Shown here: positions 6,439 through 31,130 of the stretch, piece by piece
How the letters are laid out: every line of letters begins with the position of its first letter
Numbering within the stretch: position 1 is the first letter of the stretch
Assembly: GCF_019633745.1 (NCBI RefSeq)
Contig: NZ_CP037968.1
Location: forward strand, 2,362,789-2,426,788
Length of the DNA: 64,000 bases
Reading direction: 5' to 3'
From: Methanofollis formosanus
GTDB taxonomy: Archaea; Halobacteriota; Methanomicrobia; Methanomicrobiales; Methanofollaceae
Notes under the pieces: model-generated
Databases searched by the model: none
What the model was told of the DNA's origin: nothing
Seen by the model: the letters and a program-made list of their open reading frames with translations, nothing else
Program-made: the position numbers and the translations under genes

Positions 6439-7611
6439 ATGATTACGCTTGCACTGGCCGGAAAACCGAACTGCGGCAAATCGACATTTTTCAAGGCCGC
6501 CACCATGGCGCAGGTTGAGATCGCCAATTATCCGTTCACCACCATCGACGCCAACCACGGCGTCGCCTATGTGCGGACGACGTGCCCGTGCAAAGAACTC
6601 GGCATCGAGGGCTGCACCCAGTGCCAGGACGGCGTGCGCTTTGTCCCGATCGCCTTCATCGACGTGGCGGGTCTGGTGCCCGACGCGCACAAGGGGCGGG
6701 GACTTGGCAACCAGTTCCTCGACAACCTCAGGCAGGCCGACGCCATCCTCCATGTGGTGGACGCCAGCGGCGCCACCGACGAGGAGGGCAACCCGGTCGA
6801 TCCGGGGAGCCACGACCCCAGGGAGGACATCAAGTTCCTGGGCGTCGAGATGACGATGTGGGTTCACGGTATCCTTGCCAAGCACTGGCCCCGTATCCAG
6901 CGGCAGGCCCAGTCGAAGAACTACGACATCCACGACGGCGTGGCCGACGTGCTCGCGGGCCTCGGGATCACCTACGAGGACTCGCTACACGCGGCGACCG
7001 AACTCGGGATCGACCTGCAGCGCTCGGAGATCAAGGACCTCGTTCCCTTCTGCGAACTGCTGCTTGCAAAGAACAAACCGGTCCTCTTTGTCGCAAACAA
7101 GATGGACACCGCAGATAAGGCTCTGCTCGCCGAACTTGCCGAGATGGACGGCGTGGTCAGCAGCGCCGCCGCCGAACTCGCCCTGCGGATGGCCGCGGAT
7201 GGCGGGTTCATCCACTATATCCCGGGCGACCCCTCGTTTACGATCAACGAAGACGCCAACCTCTCCGCCCAGCAGCGTGCCGGGCTCGAACACCTCGCGG
7301 CCCTGATGGCCGAACACGGCGGGACCGGCGTCCAGCAGGCGATCGACCGCACGGTCTTCGAACTCCTGGACCAGATCGTTGTCTACCCCGTGGAGGATGA
7401 GCGCCACTTCACCGACAAGCAGGGCCGCGTCCTCCCCGACGCCTTCCTGATGCCGAAGGGCTCCACCCCCAAAGACCTTGCCTTCCGCGTCCACACCGAT
7501 ATCGGCGAAGGCTTCCTGTACGCCGTCGACGCCAGGACCGATATGCGGATCAAGGAGAGCACCGAACTGAAGCACGGCGACATCATCAAGATCGTAAGCG
7601 CCAAGAAGTGA
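6439..7611 (+). CDS. ychF: YchF/Obg-related P-loop nucleotide-binding protein
   Basis: 390 aa translation-factor-class (TRAFAC) GTPase/ATPase. G1 is GKPNCGKST at residues 8-16, G3 is DVAGLVPDAHKGRGLGNQFL, and G4 is NKMD within FVANKMDTADKA. The C-terminal part ends in a TGS-like domain (KDLAFRVHTDIGEGFLYAVD, ELKHGDIIKIVSA). The archaeal branch carries a Cys-rich insert after switch I (CPCKELGIEGCTQC), a possible metal or redox site. Members associate with ribosomes; the exact role is unsettled. The ATG at 6439 lies close to the divergent promoter; a T6 run at 7637-7643 follows the gene. Confidence 0.93.
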   Translation: MITLALAGKPNCGKSTFFKAATMAQVEIANYPFTTIDANHGVAYVRTTCPCKELGIEGCTQCQDGVRFVPIAFIDVAGLVPDAHKGRGLGNQFLDNLRQADAILHVVDASGATDEEGNPVDPGSHDPREDIKFLGVEMTMWVHGILAKHWPRIQRQAQSKNYDIHDGVADVLAGLGITYEDSLHAATELGIDLQRSEIKDLVPFCELLLAKNKPVLFVANKMDTADKALLAELAEMDGVVSSAAAELALRMAADGGFIHYIPGDPSFTINEDANLSAQQRAGLEHLAALMAEHGGTGVQQAIDRTVFELLDQIVVYPVEDERHFTDKQGRVLPDAFLMPKGSTPKDLAFRVHTDIGEGFLYAVDARTDMRIKESTELKHGDIIKIVSAKK

Positions 7612-7668
7612 GCGGGGCCCCGGCACCAAACCGCTATCTTTTTTACCCTCCAGGGATGATCTTCACCC

Positions 7669-7989
7669 ATGGGTGGCGAGGTCTACCAGGCGCAGGTGCT
7701 CAAGAACTTTTTTGAGACGATCACCGGACCTGACCGGAACCTCTCCAGGATCTTCATGTGCGTCCTCTCCCTCGCGAAGCTCAGGATGGAACCGCCCGAG
7801 ACGGTGGCGCACCTCACCGATCAACTCCGCAAGAGCCGCCAGCACCGCGAGCTCTCCATCGATATTCTGGACTATATGTGCTCGTGCGCGAGCGAACTCG
7901 ACCTGGTCCCGGTCCAAACGGCCTTCGGGGTCAAGGACGTCAGGGAGATCGCCGAGACGTTTGAGGGGATCTCGATCGACTCGTTCTGA
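7669..7989 (+). CDS. Conserved hypothetical protein (methanogen-type)
   Basis: 106 aa, acidic and helical, with no signal peptide or membrane segment. Sequence features: KNFFETITGPDRNLSRIF, then a Cys-containing centre (LDYMCSCASEL). I do not recognise the family. Third-position GC bias matches the neighbours, which supports real coding. It starts 57 bp after ychF, beyond a T-run, so it probably has its own promoter (the TATCTTTTTT region near 7635-7645). Confidence 0.6.
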   Translation: MGGEVYQAQVLKNFFETITGPDRNLSRIFMCVLSLAKLRMEPPETVAHLTDQLRKSRQHRELSIDILDYMCSCASELDLVPVQTAFGVKDVREIAETFEGISIDSF

Positions 7990-16714: not shown

Positions 16715-16965
16715 TCAGAGATGAGTCGAGCGTGCGCCCCGGGATTCTGATCGACGTGCCTTCCCACATCCCCGGCGCAAGGGTTGGGGAAGGCGTGATG
16801 ATCCGACGTGCCGCCCTCATCGCAGACTCTTCACCGCCGCCTCGCGCCGGGGGGCCGACTCGAAGACCTTCGGTCTTCTCGAACTCGCTGTCACTCGTTC
16901 CCCCCGAACCCCCCACGGAAAGAGGATGGGCGGGGGCGGCAGATTGCTCGATTTTGGTTCGCTCC
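16715..16965. repeat. Dispersed intergenic repeat, copy R4 (reverse orientation)
   Basis: Reads as the reverse of R1-R3: GGTTCAGAGATGAGTCGAGC, then ACGTGCCTTCCCACATCCCC, GGGGAAGGCGTGATGATC, CATCGCAGACTCTTC, CGCGCCGGGGGGCC, the module-e palindrome around GAAGACCTTCGGTCTTC (16861-16877), CCCCCCACGG and GATGGGCGGGGGCGGC near 16940. It lies between top6B and the fkbM-top6A unit. Confidence 0.8.
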
Positions 16966-17005
16966 CCTGTTGGGAGGAGAGTGATCAAGGTTTTCCCCAG
17001 ACCCA

Positions 17006-17014
17006 TATTTTTAT
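17006..17014 (+). promoter_or_regulatory. TATA box of fkbM-top6A
   Basis: ATTTTTATA lies about 27-34 nt before the ATG at 17041, with no Shine-Dalgarno between them. This geometry puts transcription start at or within a few nt of the ATG, so the message is probably leaderless. Confidence 0.6.
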
Positions 17015-17040
17015 ACCTTCCACGCTCCCCCCACAAGACA

Positions 17041-17724
17041 ATGGACATCCCCTTCCTGATCAAGGACCTGATCCGGACCAGAGACCTCCAGACCTGGGTG
17101 AACCGGCGGTTCAAGGACGAGCACCGCGTCCCGGTGGACCACCGCGTATTCAGGACGGTCTCGACCCATGACGGCATGGTGTACATGCTCTCCCCAGAGG
17201 TCCGGACGGTCGGCGATGCGGCGGCGCGGTACCGTCTCGCTGAGATCAAGAAAGACGATATCGTCATCGACATCGGGGCCAATGTGGGGGGCTTCTGCAT
17301 CCCGGCCGCCCGGCGCTCGGCGCATGTCTATGCCGTCGAACCGATGACCGCCGATGAATTGCGCCGGAACATCGCTCTCAACGGTGCCGAAGTCACGGTG
17401 ATCGAGGCGGCCCTCGGCGACAGGAGCGAAAAGGAGATCGCCTGGGGGGATGAGGTCCGAAGGGTGCCGACGATGACGCTTGATCAGCTCAAGGAGGTCT
17501 GCGGCGGGTGCGACGTCCTGAAGTGCCACTGTGAAGGGGCGGAGTGGTCCATCAGGCCCGAAGAACTGGACGGGATCCGCCGGATCGAACTGGCCTATCA
17601 TCCACAGAAGCAGAGCGGCGTGGACCCTGAGGTGCTGCTTGGATCCATCAGGTCGCACTATGTCGTTGAGTGGGAGGTGGTCGACGGTCATGCCCTCCTC
17701 CATGCTCGATTGATGGAGAAATGA
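17041..17724 (+). CDS. FkbM-family SAM-dependent methyltransferase
   Basis: 227 aa. Methyltransferase motif I is [15 protein letters not shown] (74-88), the acidic loop [11 protein letters not shown] comes next, and the FkbM signature is near the C terminus as [12 protein letters not shown] (usually K-D-E/C-EG-E). FkbM proteins O-methylate sugars or polyketides; in archaeal glycan loci they usually methylate a glycan, which would suit the genes downstream. The ORF extends upstream to 16732 through repeat R4, which is not coding; ATG 17041 is right after the TATA box. Its stop region overlaps a possible upstream ATG of top6A (17721). Confidence 0.85.
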
Positions 17725-17783: not shown

Positions 17784-18875
17784 ATGAGAGGTCAGGTGGA
17801 GACAGAACAGAAGGCTGCAGAACGGCTCTATGCGATCGCGGAGCGGTGGTACGGGCAACTCAGCGAGGGGCAGATCCCCTCCATCGCCCTCCCGACCAGG
17901 ACCAAGCAGAATATCGAGTACGACGAGGGGAGCGGGGTCTGGAAGTACGGCGACCGCGAGAGTGTGCGGTCGGCCCAGACGGCGAAAGGGGCGGTCCACC
18001 TCCTGAAGATGGCATATGTGGTCGGTTTCCTGAAGCAGCAGCTCGCAGAGAACCGTTCCTCCACGTTGAGGGAGATGTACTACATCTCGGAGGGCTGGAA
18101 GCAGGCGAAGTTCGCGGCGCAGGATGAGTCCAACAGACTCGTCGAGGATCTGGAGATCCTCACCGACATCCAGCGCGAGGTCTACCACCTCCGCCCCGAG
18201 GAGGACGGCGCCTCGCTCTTCGGGCCGATCCGGGTGCGCGAGCAGACCCGACGGGGGATGCGCGAGATCCACTGCCAGGACGACGTCGGCGAGACCGGAT
18301 ACCAGATCCCCAACAACGTCGACGCCCTGGAGTTCGTGGACCATGACGCCAACTTCGTCATCGCCCTGGAGACCGGCGGTATGTATGCGAGGCTCATCGA
18401 GAACGGGTTTGACGAAGAGTACGGCGCCGCCCTCGTCCACCTGAAGGGCCAGCCCGCCCGTTCCACCCGCCGGCTCCTCAAACGCATCCACGAGGAGTTC
18501 AAGCTCCCGGTGATCGTCTTCACCGACGGCGACCCCTGGTCGTACCGGATCTATGCCTCGGTGGCGTACGGCTCGATCAAGGCGGCGCATATGTCAGAAC
18601 TGCTCGCCACCCCGCAGGCGCAGTTCGTTGGGGTGCAGCCCTCTGATATCCGGGACTATGACCTGCCTGCCGATCATCTCTCCGACCAGGACGTGGCGGC
18701 GCTGAAGGCGGAGCTGACCGATCCCAGGTTTGCGAGTGACTACTGGCGGGAGCAGATCGGGCTGCAGCTGGAGATGGGGTTGAAGGCGGAGCAGCAGGCG
18801 TTTGCAAGTCAGGGGTTGGATTTTGTGACGCGGGAGTATTTGCCGGCGCGGTTGAGTGAGATGGGGGTGCTGTAG
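17784..18875 (+). CDS. top6A: DNA topoisomerase VI subunit A (Spo11-like)
   Basis: 363 aa catalytic subunit that cleaves DNA through a tyrosine. The 5Y-CAP/winged-helix domain has [10 protein letters not shown] (Tyr 99-100, the active-site position). The Toprim domain has [14 protein letters not shown] (Glu196), [12 protein letters not shown] (Asp248 and Asp250) and [18 protein letters not shown] 17784 is chosen for the GGTGA 7 nt upstream and normal family length; ATG 17721 would add 21 unusual residues. It sits 59 bp behind fkbM and 4 bp before the deacetylase, so it is embedded in a glycan transcript instead of following top6B. Confidence 0.96.
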
Positions 18876-18879
18876 GGCC

Positions 18880-20298
18880 TTGGCCGAGCAGCGGGCGCTG
18901 ATCGGGGTGAAGTATGACGACCCATACGCGGTTGAGGAGACCTTCCAGCTTTTCAAGATCCCGTGGGAATGGTACGATCCGTCGCACGCCTATGACGTGG
19001 TCATCGCCCGCAGAGGGGAGGTCGAAACAGCCGGTGCCTTCCTTGTCGACCTCTTGGAGAAGGACTATTTTGCCGAGATCGCACGGATTTTGAACGAAGG
19101 TCTCCCCCACTGCCACGAACCGGTGGTCGAGATCCTCATCGACGAACTGCGCCAGGTACTAAAGGAGCACACCCTCCTCGTGGAGATCCCACCGGTGCCC
19201 TGGGGCTACTCGTACATCGTCGCACTTACGCATGACGTGGACATCACCTCGGTGCGGGAGCGGCGCTGGGTCTCGGTCGGGTATGCAGTGTATCAGTGCC
19301 TGCGGAAGGGCATGGTGAAGGACGCCACGTGTATCCTCGGTGCGAAGTGCGGGATCGGGGAGGATCCCTGGCGTTGCTTTGAGGAGTGGATGCGGCTTGA
19401 GGAGGACTTTGGGGTGCGCTCGACCTGGTTCTTCCTGCCTGAGAAGGGAATGGCCGGGGAGGGTGCACCCGCGATCCGGGCTGGGTACTATGACCTCGAT
19501 CCTGCGTTGATCAAGACGTTGACCGACGGCGGCTGGGAGGTCGGGGTGCATGGACTCGACAACTGGTGGGACGCTGGTGCGGCGCAGGATGAGTTGCGGC
19601 GCGTGTCAGACCTCACCGGTGCGGAGGTGGGGACGCGTGTTCACTGGTTGCTCTTTGATGCGGGCTCCTGGAAGAAACTCGATGAGGCAGGGTATGCCTA
19701 TGACTCGACCTTTGGGTACAACGACGATGTGGGTTTCAGGGCCGGGACGATGCAGCCCTATCGGCCGCGGGGGTGCGAGCGTTTGCTGGAGGTGCCCTTG
19801 ATCATCCAGGATGGCGGTCTGTTTGGGGGGAAGACCTGGAACTCCTCTGACGATGGAGGACGGGGTGCATGCCTCCGCCTCTCTGAAGAGGAGGCGATGG
19901 AGCGGTGCGATGAGGTGCTGGCGTATGCGAAGCAGTATGGTGGGGTCGTCACTCTTCTGTGGCACCAGGTGAGCATGGCGGCGCCGAAGAAGTGGGGGGA
20001 GTTTTATCGGGTGCTGGTGGAGAGGGCAATCGCTGATGAGGTGTGGGTGGCGTCGGTTGAGGATGTTACGCGATGGTTTGAGAGAAGACGAAAGATTACA
20101 CTTTATTTTGACATTCGTGAAAATGGGTTTGTGATCCAGTTGAATGGAGCGGAAGAGGGCAGCGATATGGCGAACCTCAAGATATTTGTCCCTCTACATG
20201 GTTCATCCATCCAGAATATCGGTACTGAATATCAACTAGGAAATACCATAGTGAAAATAACCGGCGAAAATGATAAGATGTCGGTGTATCTCCAATGA
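18880..20298 (+). CDS. NodB-like polysaccharide deacetylase
   Basis: About 472 aa (TTG 18880; ATG 18856 and GTG 18907 are alternatives). Carbohydrate esterase family 4 features: ALTHDVDITSV (TxDD-like metal site, DVD), the His motif GWEVGVHGLDNWW, STWFFLP, SGWKKLDEAGYAYDSTFGYND-like strand, and TLLWHQVSM. Predicted to remove N-acetyl groups from a sugar or sugar nucleotide. The first 400 codons are GC-rich like the core genome, but from about 20090 (ERRRKITLYFDIRENG onward) codon use turns AT-rich; the last 65 residues look like a separate small beta domain (GNTIVKITGENDKMSVYLQ). It overlaps the acyltransferase by 4 nt. Confidence 0.82.
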   Translation: MAEQRALIGVKYDDPYAVEETFQLFKIPWEWYDPSHAYDVVIARRGEVETAGAFLVDLLEKDYFAEIARILNEGLPHCHEPVVEILIDELRQVLKEHTLLVEIPPVPWGYSYIVALTHDVDITSVRERRWVSVGYAVYQCLRKGMVKDATCILGAKCGIGEDPWRCFEEWMRLEEDFGVRSTWFFLPEKGMAGEGAPAIRAGYYDLDPALIKTLTDGGWEVGVHGLDNWWDAGAAQDELRRVSDLTGAEVGTRVHWLLFDAGSWKKLDEAGYAYDSTFGYNDDVGFRAGTMQPYRPRGCERLLEVPLIIQDGGLFGGKTWNSSDDGGRGACLRLSEEEAMERCDEVLAYAKQYGGVVTLLWHQVSMAAPKKWGEFYRVLVERAIADEVWVASVEDVTRWFERRRKITLYFDIRENGFVIQLNGAEEGSDMANLKIFVPLHGSSIQNIGTEYQLGNTIVKITGENDKMSVYLQ

Positions 20299-21653
20299 AA
20301 TCATCAGGCATATTCCCATCTATCGTTAAGACGATTAAAAAAAATGACAGATTAAATCAAAATCCACTTATACGGACGCTTGCAAGGAATTATTACCGAC
20401 TCCACAATATTGCTGCGATTTTTTCCTATAAGCGTCTTCCCGCGAGTGTTACGGGAACAGACTGTGTTATCGATCCAGGGGCATATATTGCAGAACGTGG
20501 AGTGATAATTGGAAATAACTGCAGAATTGAAGATGCTACGGTTATACTGGAAAATTCTGTTATTGGAGATAACGTTACTATCGAAGCCGGTTCTGTGATA
20601 GGGTCGGAAGGTTTTCAATTCCGCCGTTTTCATGATGAGATTACACCTATTGTTCATGCTGGAGGGGTTCGTATTCTCAATGGGGTACATATCGGACCCC
20701 GAAGTTGTATAGATAAGGCGACTTTTGGAGGTTTTACCGAGATCGGCGATTATTCATCTGTAGGTGCTGAAACCCATGTTGCACATGATGTTGTCATCGG
20801 GGAGAATTGTCAGATCAATCCATCATTGATCTCAGGTCATACACATGTTGGAGACGGTGTTTTTGTTGGCTCCGGTGCTGCTATCTCAAATGCGCTTACA
20901 ATAGGCAGCCATGCATGGATCGCTCCGGGGGCAGTCGTGACTAAAGATGTGCCGGACGGTTACCGGATAGAACCTGGAAAAACTCACAATAGATTTATAA
21001 AAATCTTCTGTGTTCTTGGTGAGCATCCAGAAAGAAATGAAACCCTTCGATATGCTAATATGAAAACAGAGGTATCAGAGAGTTCGATCATTCATCCTAC
21101 GGCATATGTTGCTGATACCAGTGTCCGAATAGGGGATAAGTGTGTGATCGGACCCAATGTCTCTATTCTCGAGGGATCCGTCCTTGGTAGAGGTGTAAAA
21201 ATCGGCCCTGGATCTGTTGTAGGAGGAGGCTGTTGTCGACTCTGTCCTCAGGGTGATGAGAATATATCGTCCTGTCCATCAGGAGGGGTTGTGATCCATA
21301 ATTATGTGGATATACAGGCCAATACCCATATTGATAGATCAACAACAGGAAAATTTACAGAAATAGGGGAATATTCAAAGATCGACAACCTTGTTCATAT
21401 TGGGGCGGATGTTGTCATAGGGAAGAGATCCTTGATTGTTGCATCTTCTATGATCGGAGGCGGGACGAAGATTGGTGATGATGTGTGGGTCGGCCCCGGT
21501 ACGGTCATATCAAATAATGTAACAGTCGGTGATCAGGCATACATTACGCTGGGTTCTGTCATTACAAAAAAAGTTAAAGAGGGGAAGGTAATGATCGGCG
21601 ATTGTGCCATTGATCGCAGAAAATTCTTTTCATTTATAATGGCTGAACATTGA
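20295..21653 (+). CDS. Tandem left-handed beta-helix (LpxD/hexapeptide) acyltransferase
   Basis: 452 aa with two hexapeptide-repeat domains in tandem, each like LpxD/FdtC-type acyltransferases: repeat 1 about 55-235 (VIIGNNCRIED, VIGDNVTIEAGSVIGSEGFQ, SCIDKATFGGFTEIGDYSSV, ETHVAHDVVIGENCQIN) and repeat 2 about 265-440 (VRIGDKCVIGPNVSIL, DIQANTHIDRSTTGKFTEIG, NLVHIGADVVIGKRSLIVA). The catalytic-type His occurs in both (THVAHDV, NLVHIG). LpxD transfers 3-hydroxyacyl groups from ACP to a sugar amine in lipid A synthesis; archaea have no lipid A, so another amino sugar is likely. ATGA overlap with the deacetylase. Confidence 0.85.
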   Translation: MKSSGIFPSIVKTIKKNDRLNQNPLIRTLARNYYRLHNIAAIFSYKRLPASVTGTDCVIDPGAYIAERGVIIGNNCRIEDATVILENSVIGDNVTIEAGSVIGSEGFQFRRFHDEITPIVHAGGVRILNGVHIGPRSCIDKATFGGFTEIGDYSSVGAETHVAHDVVIGENCQINPSLISGHTHVGDGVFVGSGAAISNALTIGSHAWIAPGAVVTKDVPDGYRIEPGKTHNRFIKIFCVLGEHPERNETLRYANMKTEVSESSIIHPTAYVADTSVRIGDKCVIGPNVSILEGSVLGRGVKIGPGSVVGGGCCRLCPQGDENISSCPSGGVVIHNYVDIQANTHIDRSTTGKFTEIGEYSKIDNLVHIGADVVIGKRSLIVASSMIGGGTKIGDDVWVGPGTVISNNVTVGDQAYITLGSVITKKVKEGKVMIGDCAIDRRKFFSFIMAEH

Positions 21654-21931: not shown

Positions 21932-22675
21932 TTACATCACCTGACAACCATCCACACCAATAACCTGCCCACTCACATAATCCGCAAGGGGGGACGCCAG
22001 GAACAGGACGACCTTTGCAACATCTTCCGGGGTGCCGATACGCGCGAGTGCCACATTGTCGATCAACTCTGCCCTGACTTCTTCCTTCAAGTCTTTCGTC
22101 ATGTCGGTGGCTATCAGGCCAGGAGCGATCGCATTCACGGTGATGTTATAGCGACCGAGTTCTTTTGCAGTCGATGTGGTAAACCCGACGATAAACGACT
22201 TGCTGGCTGAATACGCACTCTGACCATTGTTTCCATGGGTTCCGACAATGGATGAAACATTTACGATCTTCCCGGAGTTCTGTTTCATCATCATCTTTGC
22301 GGCACTTTGCGAGCATAAGAACGTGCCTTTGCAGTTGATGTCGTACATACTGTTGAGTTCATCAACCCTGGTCATCATCAGAAGATTGTTGCGCATTATC
22401 CCTGCATTGTTCACAAGAATGTCGAGACGACCAAATTGTGATTTTATCTCCTTGAACATTCTCTTTACTTCGTCTTCCTTTGATACATCGGCCCTGATCT
22501 TAACGGCGGCATTATATCCTTTCTCTGCGATGAGGGCAAGCAGTTCATCGGCAGCGTCCTCGCTGTTATTGTAGTTTACAATGACCTGTGCATGATTTTC
22601 TGCGGCGAGAAGCGCCGTTGCTCTGCCGATACCCCTGCCTGCTCCGGTAATGAGCATAACCTTACCCTGTAACAT
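21932..22675 (-). CDS. fabG: FabG-like 3-oxoacyl-ACP reductase (SDR)
   Basis: 247 aa short-chain dehydrogenase of FabG length. Cofactor motif TGAGRGIG at 10-17 (NADP-type, Arg at 14), NNAG at 89-92, catalytic tetrad Asn114, Ser142 (NVSSIVG), Tyr155 and Lys159 (YSASK), and the FabG-type C-terminal end (SGQVIGVDGCQVM). In context with an acyl carrier protein two to four genes upstream it most likely reduces a 3-oxoacyl or similar thioester, but SDR substrate range is wide. Last gene of the six-gene operon, 12 nt after luxC. No ketosynthase is present. Confidence 0.88.
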   Translation of the reverse strand: MLQGKVMLITGAGRGIGRATALLAAENHAQVIVNYNNSEDAADELLALIAEKGYNAAVKIRADVSKEDEVKRMFKEIKSQFGRLDILVNNAGIMRNNLLMMTRVDELNSMYDINCKGTFLCSQSAAKMMMKQNSGKIVNVSSIVGTHGNNGQSAYSASKSFIVGFTTSTAKELGRYNITVNAIAPGLIATDMTKDLKEEVRAELIDNVALARIGTPEDVAKVVLFLASPLADYVSGQVIGVDGCQVM

Positions 22676-22687
22676 ACGTTCTCCACC

Positions 22688-23980
22688 TCATGATTCACTC
22701 TTGAGAATGACCCATCGAACAAGACGGCTCAAAGGAAGAATGCCGTCCCATGGTTGATCATAGTCATGTGTCGCCCCTGGAACGACGATGCGGTCGACAC
22801 CCCGGTACGTCGCCTCTCGGGCGAAGGAACATCGTTTTTCTTCGTCGCCAATGCACACCGTGACTGCCTGGATCTTTCTGGTGATTAAATCGAAAACATT
22901 GTTCACCGACTCAATCTCTTTGATGAAGATACATTTTCCATGAATGGGATCTTCCAGTCTGGTGGTCGTGTCCATCAGGATCGTCCAGCCCAGGTCATCA
23001 GGTACGATGATGTTCTGATGATCCGAGAGCAAGAATCTGGATCTCATATTGATGGTATTGGCCAGGATCGCCGAATCGGTATCCTGGTGCCGAAGGAGAG
23101 GAGGGAGTTGCTCAAAGTAACCTTTCATCTTCGATCCGATCTCCTCCAGCGAGTATCTGCTCTTCTCGAAGAAGAGCACCTGCGGCGACGAACAGGCCAT
23201 CTGATTGAAGACTGCAATATCTTTGACGGAGTTTTCCAGCGCCTTCTCAAAACGTTCGCTCTCGATGTATGCCCTGTCAAAAACGCTGAACGAATACTTC
23301 GGGCCAAAGACGATCGTTTCGCAGTGATCCTTTTGAGGGAGAGCAAGAATCGAACGTATCGCCTCCGATCCCCCGTAGATCACCTTACAGTCTGCGATGA
23401 GGGAGAACATTCTGCTGATCTCAGGGTTTCTCCCCTCAAATGATACCAGAGAGATGGCCCTGACAATATCTCTCCCATGGTAGGTGACCCCATTGGAGGA
23501 AGTGGAGATAGTACTCAATTCTTTCAGGAGTGCAAGAATAAATGCACTGTTTTCTTCAGGAACCTTAGCAATACTCCCGTTTTTTGAGAGGATCGCCTGG
23601 GCAAGCGAAAAAAATGCAAGGGTCGGGACATTGGTGGCGACCCACTGGCAGACTACCCCGCGTGGCTGGGCCGACAGGGCAACATGGTTGTCGACTGGAA
23701 CGAAAGTATCGAGGTACCTGCAGTCTCCATAATTTGTTTTACCGATCTGCTCAAGGTTTTTGCGGCGTAACCAGAGGGAGATATAACTGACTCCCTGCAG
23801 GGTATTGATCTCCGGGTTCTGGATGATCTTCCTCCCAAGTTTTACGAGGAGATCGATGACGGCATCAAACGGCATCTCCTGGAGGGCTCGCCTGTTCTGG
23901 TTGATGACATCGACAATGGGGGTAAAATCATCGAACTCCTCTTTGCTAAATTCTCCGTTTAACAGATGACAGGTGATCAT
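22688..23980 (-). CDS. luxC: LuxC-like acyl (thioester) reductase
   Basis: 430 aa from ATG 23980 (GGGAG 8 nt upstream); the longer ORF from 24082 overlaps luxE and is rejected. LuxC proteins are aldehyde-dehydrogenase-fold enzymes that reduce an acyl group, held as thioester on an active Cys, to the aldehyde with NADPH. The Cys motif is FNQMACSSPQ (Cys263), as in LuxC. Further family features: GVVCQWVATNVPTLAFFSL, KVPEENSAF, IYGGSEAIRSI and FGPKYSFSVF. It follows luxE by 4 nt, the usual LuxC-LuxE partnership. No luciferase genes are nearby, so the aldehyde serves something other than light. Confidence 0.87.
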   Translation of the reverse strand: MITCHLLNGEFSKEEFDDFTPIVDVINQNRRALQEMPFDAVIDLLVKLGRKIIQNPEINTLQGVSYISLWLRRKNLEQIGKTNYGDCRYLDTFVPVDNHVALSAQPRGVVCQWVATNVPTLAFFSLAQAILSKNGSIAKVPEENSAFILALLKELSTISTSSNGVTYHGRDIVRAISLVSFEGRNPEISRMFSLIADCKVIYGGSEAIRSILALPQKDHCETIVFGPKYSFSVFDRAYIESERFEKALENSVKDIAVFNQMACSSPQVLFFEKSRYSLEEIGSKMKGYFEQLPPLLRHQDTDSAILANTINMRSRFLLSDHQNIIVPDDLGWTILMDTTTRLEDPIHGKCIFIKEIESVNNVFDLITRKIQAVTVCIGDEEKRCSFAREATYRGVDRIVVPGATHDYDQPWDGILPLSRLVRWVILKSES

Positions 23981-23984
23981 AACT

Positions 23985-25091
23985 TTACTCCCTGAAGGTA
24001 TCTCCGCAGCCCCGGACCTCGACCTTCTCGATTCTCGACTGGAACCTGAAGTAGACTCCTTTGCGACCGCACGGGCAGTCATCGATGCCGATGGTATACC
24101 CCAGGTCTTCGGTCAGGATGGCCTGACTGTAATAACTGTCCGAGAGAACGCTCAACACTTCGATCATACCCACTTCATTATGGGAACAGGGCTTGAGGGT
24201 ATAGGGATCCCTGATGATCACCTGGGCGAAGTTCGGGACATGTTTATTCCCGCATTCACAGTCGACGAAGATGATACCGGTCTGCTCGGCCATACCGTAA
24301 AAATCAAGAATGTTTTCTCTCTCGGTGCCAAATACCCCGGCAATTTCGTCGGAGAAATATTCCTTCGATACCTGTTCGGCCTTCAATTTTTTCCAGCCGC
24401 CGCTGTGGAAGACCTTGACGTCCTTGAAGGTGAACCGGATGTTTTTCTCCTGTATTTGTTTATAAAATGTCGACCAGACGATGTACGTAAAACCGAATAC
24501 ATAGACTTCTTCGTCCTGGTACTGCGAGAGCACTTCTTCGATTATCGGCAGGTTGAGCACCAGTTCACCATTTTCCTCTCGCATCAGGTAGAAGATCTTC
24601 TTCGCATAGATGCTCAGGCCACGAACCCCTGCCGTTCGTGCAGAGAACTCAAGCGTCGGGTCGTTGATGCCTTCATGGTCGATGACGAGAAATATTCTCC
24701 GTCTCCCGCCCAGGTGATCTTTCAAAATACTCTTCAGCGCTTTGATCTGGTTAATGATGGTATTCTTGCTGAGTGGAACTCTGCTGGTAACACCGGTCGT
24801 TGTCCCGCTCGACCGCAGTACCTTTTCAATCCTGTCTTCCGAGCATGTCTTCAAGTCGAAGTATTTGAACATCTGAACCGGAATGGCCGGGACATCTTCC
24901 AGACGCCGGATATCATCTGGAGAGAGATCCAATTTTGAGAAGAGGTTGGCGAGATGATGATTATTTTTTATCGCCCCGGTCAGTTGAGTCCTCACAATCG
25001 GTAGCAGGAGCTGGTTCTTCTCATCATTCGGAATAGAGTACGGAGGGTTCAGGAGCAGATCGTTGAGATCATATGCTGGACCCGCCGTCAT
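23985..25091 (-). CDS. luxE: LuxE/PaaK-family acyl-protein synthetase
   Basis: 368 aa adenylate-forming enzyme of the LuxE family, which activates an acid with ATP, holds it on its own Cys and passes it to LuxC. Seen: AIPVQMFKYFDL, the nucleotide motif RSSGTTTGVTSRVPL (about 91-105), DFYGMAEQTGIIFVDCECG, ILTEDLGYTIGIDDCPCGR (zinc-like Cys pair) and a Cys six residues from the C terminus (Cys362 in VEVRGCGDTFRE), the position of the acyl-accepting Cys in luminous-bacterial LuxE. ATG 25091 overlaps the ligase stop by 4 nt. Confidence 0.88.
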   Translation of the reverse strand: MTAGPAYDLNDLLLNPPYSIPNDEKNQLLLPIVRTQLTGAIKNNHHLANLFSKLDLSPDDIRRLEDVPAIPVQMFKYFDLKTCSEDRIEKVLRSSGTTTGVTSRVPLSKNTIINQIKALKSILKDHLGGRRRIFLVIDHEGINDPTLEFSARTAGVRGLSIYAKKIFYLMREENGELVLNLPIIEEVLSQYQDEEVYVFGFTYIVWSTFYKQIQEKNIRFTFKDVKVFHSGGWKKLKAEQVSKEYFSDEIAGVFGTERENILDFYGMAEQTGIIFVDCECGNKHVPNFAQVIIRDPYTLKPCSHNEVGMIEVLSVLSDSYYSQAILTEDLGYTIGIDDCPCGRKGVYFRFQSRIEKVEVRGCGDTFRE

Positions 25092-26572
25092 TCTTGTAAC
25101 CCCCTTTCTTCCATAATCCTCGCTTTCAGCCGATTTCTGTCGACTTTATTCGAGGAATTCAGGGGGTACTCATCGACAAACTCGACGCTCATCGGGACTT
25201 TGTACGAGGGAAGAGAGGTGTTGCAGAGGGAGAGGATTTTCGTCGATACCTCTTCTGTCTCAGCACACCCGGCCTGCACCACTGCAGTGACCGCCTCTCC
25301 CATCATGTCATCAGGTATCCCGACGACGACACATCCTGAAACCTCTTCGAGTGAGAGAATAAGATCTTCAATTTCGTTTGGTGAAATCCGGTATCCACCT
25401 GACTTAATAATATTTTTCGAGCGGCCGACAACATAGATGTACCCCTCGTCGTCAATGGTCGCGAGATCCCCGGTAAAATACCTGCCGTCCCGTATCGCTA
25501 CGGCCGTTCCCTCGGGATCATTATAATAGCCCTTCATAATGTTCTCTCCAATGGCGGTGATCTCACCGATCTCACCGGGGTGAACCGGGTTGCCATGGGA
25601 GTCCACCACTTCAAGCGTAACGCCGGGGATGCCCTTGCCGATCGATCCCATCTTCTCTCTGACAAGATGGGGTGGGAGGTACGAGAGTCGCGCCGTCGCT
25701 TCCGTAGCGCCGTACATCACAAAAAATGCTTTTTCCGGGAATGCATCGATAAGCATCCGGATATACTTGTTCGGCAGATGACCCCCTGCCTGCGTGAAGT
25801 ACCGGAGGCTTGGGAGTTCTTCTCTGAGGAAGTGCGTCCGATGAATGAGGATCTGGAAGGTGCTGGGCACGCCTGAAAATCCCGTGCACTGGTACCGGTT
25901 GATGTCTAGAATGACAGATCCAAGAAAGATCTTGTTATTCAGTACGAGACTTCCACCGACGCGGATATGGGTGTGGAGCAATGATGCACCATAGCAGTAG
26001 AAGAAAGGAAGGGCAATACAGATCCGATCTGATCCGGTCAGGTGAAGATATCCAAGTATTGAGTCTGTATTGGCGATAAGGTTCTTATGAGTGAGCATCA
26101 CGCCTTTTTTTGTCCCCGTGCTCCCGGAGGTGAAGATGATGACCGCAACATCCTCCGGGTGGTCTGAGGAGGTAAATTCAGACTGTTCCTGTGAGAGGAC
26201 TCCGAGATCATCTTCGATATAAATGTCCGCAGCGGTATCATCAAAAAGATCAAGGAACTGTTTTTGAACAAAATATGCCGTCAAGGAGCAGTTCTTCAAT
26301 ACCTGTGCTAAATCTCTCTCCCCAATACTTGTTTCTATAAGTACGGCGGTGTTTCCGCTCTTGATGATTGAAAGGTAGCTGACGATAAAGAAATAATTGT
26401 TCTCTGACACCAGGAGCATCCGTTTTCCAGACCCATAGCGTTCAAACAGAGCCGAGGCGACACGATTCACATCATTGTACAATGATGCATAGGTGATTAC
26501 TCCATCTGATCCTACAAGAAAGGGGTTGTCGGAGAACCCAGAATTCTCAAATAAGTAATCAACAAAGTTCAT
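25088..26572 (-). CDS. AMP-forming acyl-CoA/acyl-ACP ligase
   Basis: 494 aa ANL-superfamily ligase from ATG 26572 (GGTAA upstream); a start at 26605 would overlap acp. Core motifs: A3 IIFTSGSTGTKKGVMLTH (about 150-167), A5 YGATEATARLSYLP, A7 YFTGDLATIDDEGYIYVVGR, A8 NIIKSGGYRISPNEIE, and A10 NSSNKVDRNRL with the catalytic Lys. Its placement 4 nt behind an acyl carrier protein suggests it loads an acid onto holo-ACP, as FadD32- or DltA-like ligases do; CoA as acceptor is not excluded. Acid identity cannot be read from sequence. Confidence 0.9.
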   Translation of the reverse strand: MNFVDYLFENSGFSDNPFLVGSDGVITYASLYNDVNRVASALFERYGSGKRMLLVSENNYFFIVSYLSIIKSGNTAVLIETSIGERDLAQVLKNCSLTAYFVQKQFLDLFDDTAADIYIEDDLGVLSQEQSEFTSSDHPEDVAVIIFTSGSTGTKKGVMLTHKNLIANTDSILGYLHLTGSDRICIALPFFYCYGASLLHTHIRVGGSLVLNNKIFLGSVILDINRYQCTGFSGVPSTFQILIHRTHFLREELPSLRYFTQAGGHLPNKYIRMLIDAFPEKAFFVMYGATEATARLSYLPPHLVREKMGSIGKGIPGVTLEVVDSHGNPVHPGEIGEITAIGENIMKGYYNDPEGTAVAIRDGRYFTGDLATIDDEGYIYVVGRSKNIIKSGGYRISPNEIEDLILSLEEVSGCVVVGIPDDMMGEAVTAVVQAGCAETEEVSTKILSLCNTSLPSYKVPMSVEFVDEYPLNSSNKVDRNRLKARIMEERGLQE

Positions 26573-26576
26573 GATG

Positions 26577-26822
26577 TTACCTTTCACGGATATATCTCGT
26601 GACAATTTCCTTTACTAGGGCGAAATTTTCCATCGCAATGATATCGTCCACCTCAAACTCAATGTCAAATTCATCTTCAAAGTTCGAAATGAGTTGGAGG
26701 TGTTTTAATGAGTCCCAGGGCCGGAAAGAATTGTACGACGTTGAATCATCAACTTCAGATTCGTCTACACCAAGTACTTCACAAAAGATCCTTTTTATTA
26801 CTGCATTCTGGTCGTCTGACAT
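26577..26822 (-). CDS. acp: Acyl carrier protein
   Basis: 81 aa, acidic, four-helix ACP fold. The phosphopantetheine site is WDSLKHL with Ser38; helix II continues HLQLISNFEDEFDIEFE as in bacterial and polyketide ACPs. ATG 26822 has GGAG 9 nt upstream; the TTG at 26837 would overlap acpS. Activated by the AcpS-type transferase encoded immediately upstream (1-nt gap). ACPs are rare in archaea, which make isoprenoid membrane lipids, so this is a probable acquisition. Confidence 0.92.
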   Translation of the reverse strand: MSDDQNAVIKRIFCEVLGVDESEVDDSTSYNSFRPWDSLKHLQLISNFEDEFDIEFEVDDIIAMENFALVKEIVTRYIRER

Positions 26823-26823
26823 C

Positions 26824-27189
26824 TTAATCGTCTCCAAGAATTACTACAAACGCAAGCGCTTTATCTTCACAATGAGCAAGACTTATCTCTAATTTCAGGT
26901 CTTTATACATTTCTTTTTTTAGTTTTACAAAAGGAACTCCATCATGTCTATTTAAAATTTCAATATCTGTATACCATACATCGGAGATACCTCGAGAATA
27001 GAGTGCTTTTATCGTTGCCTCTTTCCCGGCGAATCGTGCGGCAAGATGAGGCTCAACTGCATCTTTTGCAAAACAATAGTCTAACTCATTTTGTGTGAAT
27101 ATTTTCTTAAGTACTGGATGATTGGTATCTTGAGCAAATTCATGAAATCTATGGATGCTGACTATGTCTGTTCCGATCGTCATGCTCAT
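26824..27189 (-). CDS. acpS: Holo-ACP synthase (AcpS-type 4'-phosphopantetheinyl transferase)
   Basis: 121 aa, normal for AcpS trimers. Mg2+-binding motifs are GTDIVSI (Asp8) and RFAGKEATIKAL (Glu57, Lys56); the end has EISLAHCEDKALAFVVI, the usual SLSH strand. It transfers phosphopantetheine from CoA to Ser38 of the ACP next door. First gene of the operon; GGAG is 8 nt before ATG 27189. The upstream sequence to 27240 is AT-rich (ATTAAATTACCG on the minus strand) and is the likely promoter. Confidence 0.93.
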   Translation of the reverse strand: MSMTIGTDIVSIHRFHEFAQDTNHPVLKKIFTQNELDYCFAKDAVEPHLAARFAGKEATIKALYSRGISDVWYTDIEILNRHDGVPFVKLKKEMYKDLKLEISLAHCEDKALAFVVILGDD

Positions 27190-27543: not shown

Positions 27544-28437
27544 TTAGTTTTTATTTTTTATTATTAAATAATCTTTAAGTTGTTGTTTCCAGTATTGTGT
27601 GATCTCTTCATCCTGGATTTGGGGTTCTCTTTTTATCATCGATGATAAATAGCCAATTAAATAGGGGATACCCTGAAAATATGGTTTATTCATAGAAAAA
27701 TACACTCCTCCCCCCAATACTAAAAGAAATGGTCTGCTTAGATAATGCGCTGTTCGACCTTTACTTAAATATCCTTTCCAAACTCCCTCTGCTCCGCTAG
27801 TTGCTCTTAATTGGAGGGCCCGGATCTGATCAAACTGTGCAATTTTCCAACCCCTGTTCACTGCCTTGATGTTGGATAGGGTATCACATGCTGGCTCAAG
27901 AGGACAACCCCCGGTTTCATAATAACATTTTTTTCGCCATAACCTCCCAGAACCCCGCGGTGTATTCCTATTTGGACTATTTACTTCTAATGATCCCCAG
28001 TATTCTTCACGTATTTGATCGCATTCTTCTGTCCAATCTATGAGGCACCCACTTGCAATACCCAGAGCTGGTTCTTTTTCAAATTCAGAGATCAGGTTTT
28101 CATAATAATCTCTTTGCAGAAGCGTGTCTGCATCGAGGAGCCCTATATATTCGTACGTGATAGAATTCTGGGTACAATAGTCAATAGCAAAGTCGATCCC
28201 GGATTTGCAAACGTATGAATAATGAAAGGTAAGATCTCTTGGGTGCTCAGGTAAGCGGATACTTTTGATCCATGTGTATTCCTTTTCTAACTCCTTGATG
28301 ATATTTGGACTCTGGTCAGTACTCCCATCGTCGACAATAAGCCAGAGGAGTGGTTTTTTTGTCTGAGCGATGACTGTAGATGCAGTTTTTTTAATAAATT
28401 TTTCTTCATTTTTTACGGGGGTAATCAAGATGAACAT
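27544..28437 (-). CDS. Family 2 glycosyltransferase
   Basis: 297 aa from ATG 28437, which overlaps the stop of the fragment upstream (TGATG) and has GTGAT just ahead; ATG 28449 is possible. GT-A fold: ILITPVKNEEKFIKKTASTV (nucleotide-sugar site start), WLIVDDGSTDQSPNII (first Asp pair), IGLLDADTLLQRDYYENLI (DxD), RNTPRGSGRLWRKKCYYETG acceptor region. Likely adds a sugar to a lipid-linked glycan. AT-rich coding, typical of the island. One weakly hydrophobic C-terminal region (FLLVLGGGVYFSM). Confidence 0.87.
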   Translation of the reverse strand: MFILITPVKNEEKFIKKTASTVIAQTKKPLLWLIVDDGSTDQSPNIIKELEKEYTWIKSIRLPEHPRDLTFHYSYVCKSGIDFAIDYCTQNSITYEYIGLLDADTLLQRDYYENLISEFEKEPALGIASGCLIDWTEECDQIREEYWGSLEVNSPNRNTPRGSGRLWRKKCYYETGGCPLEPACDTLSNIKAVNRGWKIAQFDQIRALQLRATSGAEGVWKGYLSKGRTAHYLSRPFLLVLGGGVYFSMNKPYFQGIPYLIGYLSSMIKREPQIQDEEITQYWKQQLKDYLIIKNKN

Positions 28438-28690
28438 CAGATCACGCATAGTATTGTTGTCGATAGAATTATTTTACCATTGTGGGAAAAATATCCCGAA
28501 TAGATTGTAACAGTTGGACATATCATATCTGGATCTCTATTTGTGAGAGGCAGTTTGTTTATCTGAATATTTTGAGGGAGGTCATCCCAATACTCTCTGC
28601 ACGGCAAAAGTCTATATAAATCGTTGTTCCTTGCGTATGTGACTAAACAAAATCTCAGGAGCATAGTTTGTACAACGAACGGCTCTTTAG
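28437..28690 (-). pseudogene. 3' remnant of an unidentified gene truncated by an insertion sequence
   Basis: The open frame (residues LRFCLVTYARNNDLYRLLPC through NGKIILSTTILCVI) ends in TGA overlapping the glycosyltransferase ATG, as true operon genes do here. Its upstream end runs into the C-terminal coding end of a decayed transposase at about 28690, so its own 5' part is missing. No family recognised. It may be the tail of another glycan enzyme. Confidence 0.45.
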
Positions 28691-29313
28691 AATCCCTTTC
28701 TGACAACGCCGCTAGATCCGTTTTGTATCGCCTTGATGATGTTGTTGAGTATGATTTTGATCTTGATCTCTTTGATCTGTGAGTATAACTTTCTCGCCTT
28801 CAGACTCTCTCCAAATCTTCTTTTGAGAACTAAAAACGCTGTTTCGACCTTATTTCTCTGATGATATTTCTCTCGATCAAACCTGTCGAACATCTCCTGT
28901 CGATAGTGTCCGAATATATCTTTCCCTTCCATTTTCTGACCTGGATCAGAGAATCCGCTCCGATTTCTCCTCTGATCTTTTGATGAAGTGTTTCGGAATC
29001 ATATCCCCGATCCATGCAGTAACATTTAGTTCTCCTCGTTCTGGTACATTGATTCAAGAGTTTTTCTGCATGTTTTATGTCATGTACTGGTAGCCCCCTC
29101 CAGATCTCATGCCTCTGCCAACCTCTGTAATTGGTTTTTCTGGTTAACGCCCGCTGTAAATGCCGCCCCCAGCAAAAGTACATTCAATGCAACGAACTTT
29201 GTGACTGAAATCTCCGAATATCTGTGTGATTTTTGGTAGTGCTCCATCCCTGTGCCGATAATACTTCTTCTAAATCTCTTCAAATTTCGTGTTAAATTAC
29301 TTTTATTAGGCAT
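28687..29313 (-). pseudogene. Decayed IS5-like transposase
   Basis: Three minus-strand frames give one broken transposase: N-terminal part MPNKSNLTRNLKRFRRSI (29107-29313), middle PVHDIKHAEKLLNQC and MDRGYDSETLHQKIRGEI (28830-29183), C-terminal RNKVETAFLVLKRRFGESL (28687-28932). The C-terminal Y-(2)-R-(3)-E-(6)-K-like signature (HQRNKVETAFLVLK) is typical of IS4/IS5-group DDE enzymes. At least two frameshifts separate the pieces, so it is inactive. Its end truncates the gene fragment at 28437-28690. Confidence 0.75.
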
Positions 29314-29330
29314 TCTGTTCAGTGGGGTTT

Positions 29331-30249
29331 ATGCCCCGTCCTCGCAGTCACATTCCGATCACCTGCCAGAACTCGGCGTGTCGCTTTTATCTGGTCGAGG
29401 AAGGTAAGGATATCGTCAAGAATGGAACAACCTCTTGTGGACACCAGCAGTATTTCTGCAAACACTGCCGAACATACTTCGTTGAGACAAAAAACACTCC
29501 ATTTTATCGCTCTCATCTAGAATATTGTCAGATTGAGACGATCTGCCGACATGGTGCAGAGAAGATTTCAATCCGAGGGGTGAGTCGGATCACCGGCCAT
29601 CATCAAGATACCATTTCTCGGTATTACAAGTTGTTCGGTGAGCATGCTGAGGTCTTGAATGAGTTCTTTCTCCAGGATCTTACCCCTGATCGGATTGAAG
29701 CAGATGAAATCTGGACTTTCATTCAAAAAAAACAAAAATTGCAGAGAACCGGATGACTCTAATTGTGGGGATTATTGGACCTATACCGCTATCGCACGTG
29801 ATTCTGGACTGATGATCGCTCATTATGGAGGAAAACGAACAGATACAACCTGCGAGAACTTCCTCAACCTGGTTTTTGAGAGAATCAGATTACCATTCCC
29901 TTCAATGAAGATTACCATCACAACCGACGGAAATCCCCAATACATCGATGCATTGGCAGAGTTGTACTGTGAAACCTGCATTGAGTATGGTCAACTGCTC
30001 AAACACAGGGAGAAGAACAAAATCGTCGCGATCAACCCAAAAAAAATCTTTGGAGATCCCGAAATATCAAAAATTTCTACGTCAGTGGTAGAAGGCTATA
30101 ACAATAAGATTAGACCGCGAATCAGCAAGTTTGGGAGGAAAACAGCATCATTTTCAAAGAAGATTGTTTCGTATATAGGAGCACTGAATCTTTTTCAGTT
30201 TATGAACAACTTCATTGATGCAAAAAAAAAGGCAGAACGCCAGCGATGA
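29331..30249 (+). mobile_element. IS1-like transposase, frameshifted at an A8 tract
   Basis: Frame 1 (29331-29756) has an N-terminal zinc ribbon (CQNSAC and CKHC, residues about 12-45), an HTH (KISIRGVSRITGHHQDTISR) and the first DDE Asp (RIEADEIWTFI). Frame 2 (to 30249) continues YWTYTAIARDSG, the second Asp (TTDGNPQY) and Glu (SVVEGYNNKIRPR). The frames join at A8 (29725-29732) and need a +1 (or -2) shift. IS1 makes its transposase by -1 shifting on an A-run, so this is either a different recoding mode or a one-base mutation. Terminal inverted repeats were not resolved. Confidence 0.72.
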
Positions 30250-30629
30250 AAGAGGGTATTACGGATCATGTCTGGACATGGAGGGAGTTTTTAACATTCC
30301 ATATTCAGTTGTAGAGGAGGGCACTACCGTTTTCCGGGAGTATTTACAGGAATAGAGAGGGATATGAGCATGTCTGATCACGCTGAGAGTGGTCTCAAGA
30401 AGGTTGATATAGCTGTTCGTTGACACTGATTACTGCTCCTTGCGGTTGGTTTTGTCACTTACACAAGGAGCAACGATTTTATTGATCTTTCCCTTCAGGA
30501 GTCATCACTAGACGGGAGGGTTTCTACAGAGCCTTTGGATGTACTTTTGCAGGGGGAGAATATTTCAACAATGAGATGAGACATTGGCGCATCGTAGAGA
30601 CATAAAGAGAGGGGAGATTTTGGAGGGGG
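30250..30629. mobile_element. IS debris including a 5' fragment of a transposase gene
   Basis: 30330-30530 matches 31034-31235 in the same orientation (shared GGAATAGAGAGGGATATGAG and TCAAGAAGGTTGATATAG, CACTGATTACTGCTCCTTGC). On the minus strand it encodes the same transposase N terminus (LLETTLSVIRHAHIPLYS), so it is a truncated second copy of the element that follows. 30531-30629 holds nothing recognisable. Confidence 0.6.
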
Positions 30630-31130
30630 CTAATGTACTTGTTTTTGTGAGATTTTACAGAAGATAATGATCTGTTTTGCTATATCGACTGCAATCGAGG
30701 TCTTCAGGAAGTTTTTCCGCGTTTTTCCCGTCCTCCAGGAATAATAATGACTTGCGTACGAACTGGTGAACCCTTATGAGTCGATCGCGGTCATGGGGAT
30801 TATGTCTCTCCTAGAATAAAAGATATCCAAAGTTTTCTTGAGGGTCTTGGTGAAGATTATTGAGGGTACTCTGTGGCTAAATTTATGGAGGGTCGTGTAG
30901 TGTGGAACCTGATCTAGCTGGAGAATCTCTTTGATTCTGTCCATCAGATCGACGAGTTGAACCGTATCCCGGTAGTCCTCTCCGATGATCTCACGGAAGA
31001 TGGTAAGAGACATCAACTGAGGTTGAGTATAGGTTTTCCTGGAGAATTTACCGGAATAGAGAGGGATATGAGCAGTTCTGATGACGGTGAGCGTAGTCTC
31101 AAGAAGGTTGATATAGCCGTTCGTTGACAC
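30630..31130 (-). pseudogene. Truncated transposase with in-frame stop
   Basis: The minus frame from ATG 31130 gives an N-terminal transposase part (KTYTQPQLMSLTIFREIIGE, DQVPHYTTLHKFSHRVPS) ending MTAIDS, then TAA at 30774-30776, then in the same frame [20 protein letters not shown] and [17 protein letters not shown] to a TAG at 30630. Archaeal relatives read AIDSSGF across this point, so the TAA replaces a sense codon at the first catalytic Asp region. The rest of the DDE domain is missing. Confidence 0.72.

Follow-up and report, generated by a model that had tools for sequence, protein, structure and literature searches.

An AcpS-equipped gene cassette, probably for acylation of surface amino-sugars, in Methanofollis formosanus and other archaea

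The window, a stretch of 64,000 nucleotides from the methanogen Methanofollis formosanus (contig NZ_CP037968.1, positions 2,362,789 to 2,426,788), contains a minus-strand operon with the order acpS-acp-ANL ligase-luxE-luxC-SDR, in which all six frames are open, the catalytic residues are intact and the successive gaps from acpS to the SDR gene are 1, 4, -4, 4 and 12 nt. The original prediction had described six tightly spaced minus-strand genes with intact motifs, and both the coordinates and the Pfam matches agree with it, each of the six proteins scoring above the Pfam cut-offs. The first gene, acpS (26824-27189), encodes a holo-ACP synthase, which puts phosphopantetheine on ACP (Pfam ACPS, 53.4 bits; TIGR00516, 65 bits against a cut-off of 59.8), with the motifs GTDIV and FAGKEA. 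It is followed by acp (26577-26822; PP-binding, 35.2 bits), whose product carries the predicted modifiable serine, Ser38, within DSL; as a start codon, the ATG at 26822 is favoured over a TTG at 26837. The AMP-forming acyl-ACP ligase of the ANL type (25088-26572) matches AMP-binding with 222.7 bits and AMP-binding_C with 47.5, its top NCBIfam match being TIGR03098, an exopolysaccharide-associated acyl ligase, with a score under the cut-off.

The next two genes encode an acyl-protein synthetase, LuxE (23985-25091; Pfam LuxE, 197 bits), and an aldehyde-forming acyl-thioester reductase, LuxC (22688-23980; Pfam LuxC, 203 bits). Both are homologous to the fatty-acid reductase of luminous bacteria (7xc6): LuxE can be aligned to chain E through the C-terminal cysteine, Cys362 pairing with its counterpart there (KGC), and LuxC to chain A through the catalytic cysteine, Cys263 likewise pairing with its counterpart (QAC). 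The operon ends with a short-chain dehydrogenase/reductase of the FabG type, called here SDR-A (21932-22675; adh_short_C2, 219.8 bits), in which the N-S-Y-K residues are present, and which is proposed as the reductase of the LuxC aldehyde or of a keto-acyl group. Roughly 1.1 Mb from the operon, the same genome carries another acpS-acp-ligase locus, not mentioned in the original prediction, without luxE or luxC and with a polysaccharide deacetylase gene nearby.

Two plus-strand genes, also passed over in that prediction, lie convergent with the operon, and they suggest where its product goes. The first (20295-21653) encodes a fused pair of LpxD-like left-handed-helix acyltransferases, which matches PRK00892, the LpxD subfamily, with 243 bits (cut-off 207) but misses the stricter equivalog TIGR01853 (232.3 of 242.5 bits). 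It matches the solved LpxD 2iu8 (E 2e-16) and also solved LpxA; its LpxD relatives in the PDB and NCBIfam are acyl-ACP-dependent enzymes. Unlike LpxD and LpxA, it consists of two fused helices, and alignment of its halves to Methanoregulaceae proteins, where the two are separate, indicates that the LpxD-type active-site histidine is kept in the N-half (VAHD) and lost in the C-half (GAD). The host is not known to have a lipid A pathway. The second gene (18856-20298) encodes a putative sugar N-deacetylase with an HDVD motif, for which VimE-like is a working label, its NCBIfam VimE score of 45.7 bits (E 3e-12) being far under the cut-off of 440. A Pfam scan and a PDB sequence search with this protein gave no match, and structure prediction from four input sequences reached a pLDDT of 33; the motifs LTHDVD and WH are, in turn, invariant among four relatives. 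The enzyme is proposed to free a sugar amine.

On the other side, acpS adjoins a family 2 glycosyltransferase gene (27544-28449, minus strand; Glycos_transf_2, 62 bits), beyond which Pfam matches identify further surface-glycan genes between 31611 and 38323, encoding GT4 and GT2 glycosyltransferases, a polysaccharide pyruvyl transferase, an FrhB-like protein and a flippase. The link to surface glycans that had been predicted is supported by the location of the operon inside a surface-glycan cluster. Remnants of insertion sequences are found at 28687-31130. These remnants, together with a sporadic distribution and a low G+C content of 36-50% versus 63-67% in the adjoining TopoVI and hisS genes, would be expected of a functionless import from bacteria in the course of decay; this explanation is hardly credible, because all frames and catalytic residues are intact, and the frames of relatives, at no more than about 50-85% identity, are likewise unbroken.

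Regarding the use of the operon, de novo type II fatty-acid synthesis was rejected, malonyl transferase (MCAT, PF00698) having no match anywhere in the genome. Of the absences originally claimed, that of MCAT holds for the whole genome and that of luciferase for the neighbouring proteins scanned, among which no luxA/luxB family was found, while for ketosynthase the genome gives one marginal match of 52 residues to PF00109, a family that also matches in ordinary archaea. Bioluminescence was also rejected. It could still be argued from the homology to 7xc6 that a fatty aldehyde or alcohol is made in the manner of LuxCE for a lipid or wax-like product instead of a glycan. We consider this very improbable, taking into account that the NCBIfam long-chain equivalogs are missed by far (84.7 of 550 bits for LuxE and 94.7 of 750 for LuxC), that MCAT is lacking, that no luciferase was found among the annotated neighbours, and that every cassette examined adjoins glycan genes. 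The setting differs from that of the lux genes, and the analogy with luminous bacteria drawn in the original prediction is not the nearest one, since the same gene set minus acpS has already been recognised in bacteria as a cassette for glycan acylation.

Among these bacterial systems, the genes VC0248-VC0252 (wbeKLMNO/rfbKLMNO) of V. cholerae O1 are taken here to encode an ACP, an acyl ligase, a LuxE/LuxC-type reductase and an acyltransferase, presumably with LuxE and LuxC fused, an iron alcohol dehydrogenase in place of the SDR, and no acpS. The likeness of these genes, in a bacterial host, to those of the window is one of gene description, not of sequence comparison. VC0248-0252 have been assigned to the synthesis of tetronate, which N-acylates the perosamine of the O antigen, and wbeL is required for a normal O antigen (PMC3441752). 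The group II island of Aeromonas contains acp, a 3-oxoacyl-ACP reductase, an AMP-synthetase, luxE and luxC (PMC7874193), and a similar gene set occurs in flagellin-glycan islands of Enterobacteriaceae (PMC4875605). The Aeromonas island shares five functions with the window and is likewise clustered with glycan genes, but acpS is not listed in it, its context is pseudaminic acid and its target is bacterial flagellin. In Dickeya zeae EC1, an insert (W909_12275-12315) encodes LuxC, LuxE, FadD, TktA, TktB, two FabG, ACP and a maltose O-acetyltransferase (PMC4522980); this is a transketolase variant with two SDRs, as in other archaeal cassettes, whereas the window has acpS and lacks transketolase. 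As in the bacterial glycan-acylation cassettes, acp, ligase, luxE and luxC are clustered in the window with a dedicated reductase gene and an acyltransferase gene within a surface-glycan cluster. The gene set itself is, then, already known in bacteria, and the archaeal, acpS-bearing form is a variant of it; no archaeal description was found in the literature searched, which consisted mainly of open-access papers.

Within the Methanomicrobiales, 15 LuxE loci were found in 14 of 232 species, and further ones exist in other archaea. The six-gene order is kept in 20 archaeal loci (the SDR gene following luxC in 18), which rules out chance clustering; the predicted operon is thus recurrent in the Methanomicrobiales, the order to which the host belongs, and not unique. 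In Methanoregulaceae, the genes deac-lpxD-lpxD-acpS-acp-lig-luxE-luxC-sdr run in a single direction, with deac and lpxD upstream of acpS, the order deac-lpxD-lpxD-acpS being conserved across L051-L053, and the site is flanked by TopoVI, as in the window. The cassettes closest to that of the window (L054 and L055) have different neighbours, deac29 and a WbbJ-like hexapeptide protein, and in other loci DegT aminotransferases or polysaccharide deacetylases, together with hexapeptide acyltransferases, replace the pair of deacetylase and LpxD-like genes. An amine-making enzyme is encoded within 9 kb in 17 of the 20 archaeal cassettes and an LpxD or hexapeptide acyltransferase in 16, leaving three and four loci, respectively, without a recognised one, while the same neighbours occur in none of five LuxE/LuxC loci lacking ACP genes; these counts are descriptive, the profiles having been built from those very loci.

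The cassette recurs across five archaeal groups. All 20 archaeal cassettes examined include acpS, which is absent from most bacterial ones; when its association with archaeal hosts was tested on the tree, four independent pairs were available, of which two were informative (p 0.5), which is suggestive only. The gene acpS was recruited into the cassette independently, at least twice, and such joining, together with the recurrence, supports the portability through AcpS that had been predicted. In trees that included C. tyrobutyricum, Myxococcales and Rhodospirillales and left out Aeromonas and Vibrio sequences, LuxE and the ligase share ancestry with the bacterial cassettes, and the groupings of both trees are broadly concordant. 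Most likely, the cassette was borrowed from bacteria. Plasmid matches to LuxE appear in Rhizobium, Priestia and Ponticoccus, with at most 38% identity.

With a probability of roughly 0.7, we interpret the locus as a horizontally spread cassette for the acyl decoration of surface amino-sugars, through which a small acid would be activated, reduced, held on ACP and linked as an amide. Thus, AcpS would produce holo-ACP, and LuxE would adenylate a small carboxylic acid, probably a C4 hydroxy- or dicarboxylic acid (malate, for example) at one of its carboxyl groups, and pass the thioester to LuxC. LuxC would reduce it to the aldehyde with NAD(P)H, and the SDR could convert the aldehyde to an alcohol, giving a hydroxy-acid, favoured to be of the dihydroxybutanoyl type, that the ANL ligase would load on ACP. 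The LpxD-like enzyme is the candidate for transfer of the acyl group to a nucleotide-sugar, at an amine that would be freed by the adjoining deacetylase, or made by a DegT aminotransferase in other loci, and the N-acylated sugar would then enter the surface glycan. Some points count against this interpretation: the acyltransferase and deacetylase genes of the window are on the other strand, the deacetylase match is under threshold, the neighbours in L054 and L055 differ, a few of the 20 loci have no recognised amine-maker or hexapeptide acyltransferase, and the SDR belongs to a type with other substrate habits, FabG-type enzymes usually acting on 3-oxoacyl groups and not on aldehydes.

An ACP-loading and acyl-reduction operon with its own AcpS in a methanogen, as originally put forward, is supported, although the proposed order, loading followed by reduction, has a rival of at least equal likelihood: since LuxE has its own adenylation domain, the free acid may be reduced first and loaded afterwards. 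Reduction of the ACP-bound acyl group, the ligase loading the acid before LuxE and LuxC act on it, would suit both the gene order acp-ligase-luxE-luxC and a FabG-type reductase, which fits ACP substrates. Enzymes of the LuxE family act on free acids, which they adenylate and then pass to their own cysteine, as established for LuxE, so the ACP thioester would first need hydrolysis, or the attack would have to occur at a second carboxyl; we regard this route as unlikely. It might also be that two small pathways share the operon, with the ligase and ACP activating the acid of the amide, be it an amino acid or another one, and LuxE-LuxC-SDR making a reduced unit of their own, such as a portion of the sugar itself. 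The adenylation domain of LuxE would allow this, and the second acpS-acp-ligase locus indicates that an ACP module can work alone; nevertheless, the six-gene order is maintained across large distances, bacteria included, and the concordance of the ligase and LuxE groupings suggests one pathway, making a double function decidedly improbable.

If the cassette does decorate amino-sugars, it represents a concrete, testable use of ACP in archaea, in the form of a portable, AcpS-equipped kit that has spread among methanogens and extends to other archaea. Phylogenomic analysis had concluded that archaea lack ACP, save for a few transfers without an assigned use (PMC3533463). The kit predicts specific glycan masses that could be sought in cultured methanogens. 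In the glycan of A. piscicola AH-3, an unexplained moiety of 102 Da and a pseudaminic derivative of 376.14 Da have been described; a dihydroxybutanoyl residue has a computed mass of 102.03 Da and, when swapped for one acetyl of Pse5Ac7Ac, leads to 376.15 Da. The published masses are therefore compatible with a dihydroxybutanoyl product, and the 102 Da mass of the Aeromonas glycans would be tied to a candidate enzyme set.

The aldehyde may have more than one fate among the cassettes. Among the loci examined, SDR-A is present in 16, none of them with transketolase, and a split transketolase in seven, none with SDR-A, the transketolase type being that of Methanogenium marinum, for example; this mutual exclusion suggests that they are alternative means of processing the LuxC aldehyde. 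A two-way module can be imagined, if with some doubt, in which the aldehyde is reduced by SDR-A or, where SDR-A is missing, extended by two carbons through the split transketolase, with one or two other SDRs completing the product, in a ketosynthase-free route to polyhydroxy-acyl groups for ACP. Switches between SDR-A and transketolase are seen among close relatives (L062 versus L063; L051 and L053 versus L052), and on the tree the exclusion is represented by three pairs, all opposite (p 0.25), which is suggestive only.

The six genes of the cassette (acpS-acp-ligase-luxE-luxC-SDR; minus strand, 21932-27189) were borne out exactly where the original prediction had placed them, with intact reading frames and catalytic residues and intergenic gaps of 1, 4, -4, 4 and 12 nt, and all six proteins passed the Pfam profile cut-offs. 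The cassette has a G+C content of 36-50%, far lower than the 63-67% of hisS and the TopoVI genes next to it, consistent with acquisition of this segment. The whole genome consists of a single contig of 2.97 Mb.

A profile search of 232 species of Methanomicrobiales yielded 15 LuxE loci in 14 genomes, two of them in the genus of the window (its own and a distant type in another genome, G027). Others were found in Candidatus Methanoculleus thermohydrogenotrophicum, Methanogenium marinum, Methanoregula sp. and Methanocalculus sp. Scanning of genome contigs extended the distribution beyond this order to Methanohalophilus profundi, three Methanomassiliicoccales MAGs, a Thermoplasmata MAG and a nanohaloarchaeal MAG, and gave bacterial matches in a KSB1 MAG, an Omnitrophota MAG, Clostridium tyrobutyricum, Myxococcales and Rhodospirillales, among others. 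A survey of gene neighbourhoods, as had been proposed, revealed that the six-gene order is retained in the archaeal loci, with the exceptions of the nanohaloarchaeal one, where acpS comes after both a hexapeptide gene and the SDR, and of two Methanogenium loci (L056, L057) lacking the SDR. The order is also kept in the KSB1 and Omnitrophota MAGs, which may be true recipients or binning errors. Both the individual enzymes and the bacterial cassette have been described before, and the sporadic presence of ACP and AcpS in archaea through transfer is on record (PMC3533463); no description of the archaeal acpS-equipped form, its conserved order or its association with amine-making and LpxD-like enzymes was found in the literature searched.

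Some individual loci show further peculiarities. In L060 (11900-16110), an insertion of about 3.4 kb with two large ORFs splits the SDR gene, leaving the remaining cassette intact. One continuous frame comprises ligase and LuxE in Methanohalophilus (L090, 8519-11104), and LuxE and LuxC in the nanohaloarchaeal MAG (L097, 4491-6953). In three loci from other members of the phylum (L064, L067, L068), LuxE and LuxC are paired but ACP, ligase and AcpS are all missing, and the surrounding genes differ; the LuxC frame of L064 has 837 aa.

Among the loci with ligase, luxE and luxC, acpS is present in 20 of 20 archaeal versus 2 of 7 bacterial ones. In the LuxE tree, the archaeal cassettes form two separate groups: the window belongs to the large one, and L058, L062 and L063 make up the small one, next to sequences of Rhodospirillales type. 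The AcpS proteins of the two groups likewise cluster separately. So acpS was recruited to the cassette at least twice, as would be predicted for hosts that have no general AcpS and require one in cis. The independent contrasts are too few for a claim of significance. Upstream of the L062 cassette, two divergent acpS genes are adjacent (6929-7222 and 7324-7698).

Past the SDR position, six fully read archaeal cassettes (L051, 12834-14668; L053, L056, L057, L058, L062) and the partial L103 are adjoined by transketolase genes split into an N and a C half (by Pfam). The window-type SDR (21932-22675 and relatives 52-100% identical) occurs in none of these seven loci, and transketolase in none of the 16 cassettes carrying that SDR. 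The SDRs of the transketolase loci are 34-43% identical to the window type, except in L056 and L057, where none was recognised, L057 showing only a weak possible remnant. Some four switches are needed to explain the tree, and two of these lie between close relatives; the exclusion comprises three independent pairs (p 0.25). The same transketolase variant is found in Dickeya zeae EC1, with LuxC, LuxE, FadD, two Tkt, two FabG, ACP and an acetyltransferase (PMC4522980). The simplest reading, for which more loci are needed, has the aldehyde undergo either reduction or a two-carbon extension.

The window's cassette is part of a surface-glycan cluster that reaches 38323 and includes GT2, GT4, GT2, polysaccharide pyruvyl transferase, FrhB-like protein and flippase. 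Between the operon and the other genes of this cluster, at 28687-31130, are several short remnants of transposases (IS1-type DDE and others). A putative deacetylase (18856-20298) and an LpxD-like double acyltransferase (20295-21653) are convergent with the operon. In three Methanoregulaceae loci, at the same hisS-TopoVI-B-TopoVI-A site, the deacetylase and two separate lpxD genes directly precede acpS on the same strand; this arrangement is the best evidence that both enzymes belong with the cassette. The window's cassette is reversed relative to these genes, and its nearest relatives (L054, L055) have another deacetylase (Polysacc_deac_1) and a short hexapeptide protein in their place, so the cassette may have been exchanged at this site. 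Between TopoVI B and A, the window carries a methyltransferase-like gene (16732-17724; TRM5/TYW2 domain, weak similarity to V. cholerae RfbT), absent from the Methanoregulaceae loci L051 and L052, where both subunit genes are adjacent.

In the LpxD-like pair (ACYLTRANSFERASE), His occupies the LpxD active-site position in the N-half of the window's protein and in the separate proteins that correspond to it (VAHD, IGHG, VGHG, IGHN), but not in the C-half and its counterparts (GAD, IGQG, IGPG, VGQG, IRQG). This pattern suggests that an active subunit has an inactive partner, the two being joined in a single protein in the window. In the remaining loci, acpS is flanked by DegT aminotransferases, RmlA-like nucleotidyltransferases and sugar dehydratases. 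Within 9 kb, 17 of 20 archaeal cassettes have an amine-making enzyme and 16 of 20 a hexapeptide/LpxD protein, neither being found in five LuxE loci without ACP genes; these counts are descriptive and no independent test, the profiles having been built from the same loci.

LuxE and LuxC of the window are homologous to the lux enzymes, which convert an acid to an aldehyde, and the ligase and ACP families keep an acyl group as a thioester. In V. cholerae O1, genes assigned to tetronate synthesis serve the N-acylation of perosamine, and normal O antigen is no longer formed once wbeL is lost (PMC3441752). Aeromonas group II strains contain acp, 3-oxoacyl-ACP reductase, AMP-synthetase, luxE and luxC (PMC7874193). 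Among these strains, A. piscicola AH-3 has a glycan with a 102 Da unit of unknown nature and a pseudaminic derivative of 376.14 Da; a dihydroxybutanoyl residue is computed at 102.03 Da, and Pse5Ac7Ac with one acetyl exchanged for it at 376.15 Da. This match is our own arithmetic, absent from the literature searched, and other C4H6O3 groups would fit as well; it favours a small acid of tetronate type over a fatty acid. Taking into account this match and the bacterial parallels, it is proposed that a free acid would be taken by LuxE and then LuxC, followed by the SDR, after which the ligase would act and ACP be loaded, and an acyltransferase would move the acyl group from ACP to an amino-sugar.

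The same genome has a second acpS-acp-ligase set (G000:C1:1,273,963-1,274,513 onward; 8429-10523 of L073, G000:C1:1264000-1283999), shared with several species of the genus (loci L075, L076 and L084). It lacks luxE and luxC and has a polysaccharide deacetylase about 3 kb away, which suggests that ACP acid-loading beside a deacetylase is a wider habit in the group and that neither of the two AcpS proteins is the sole supplier.
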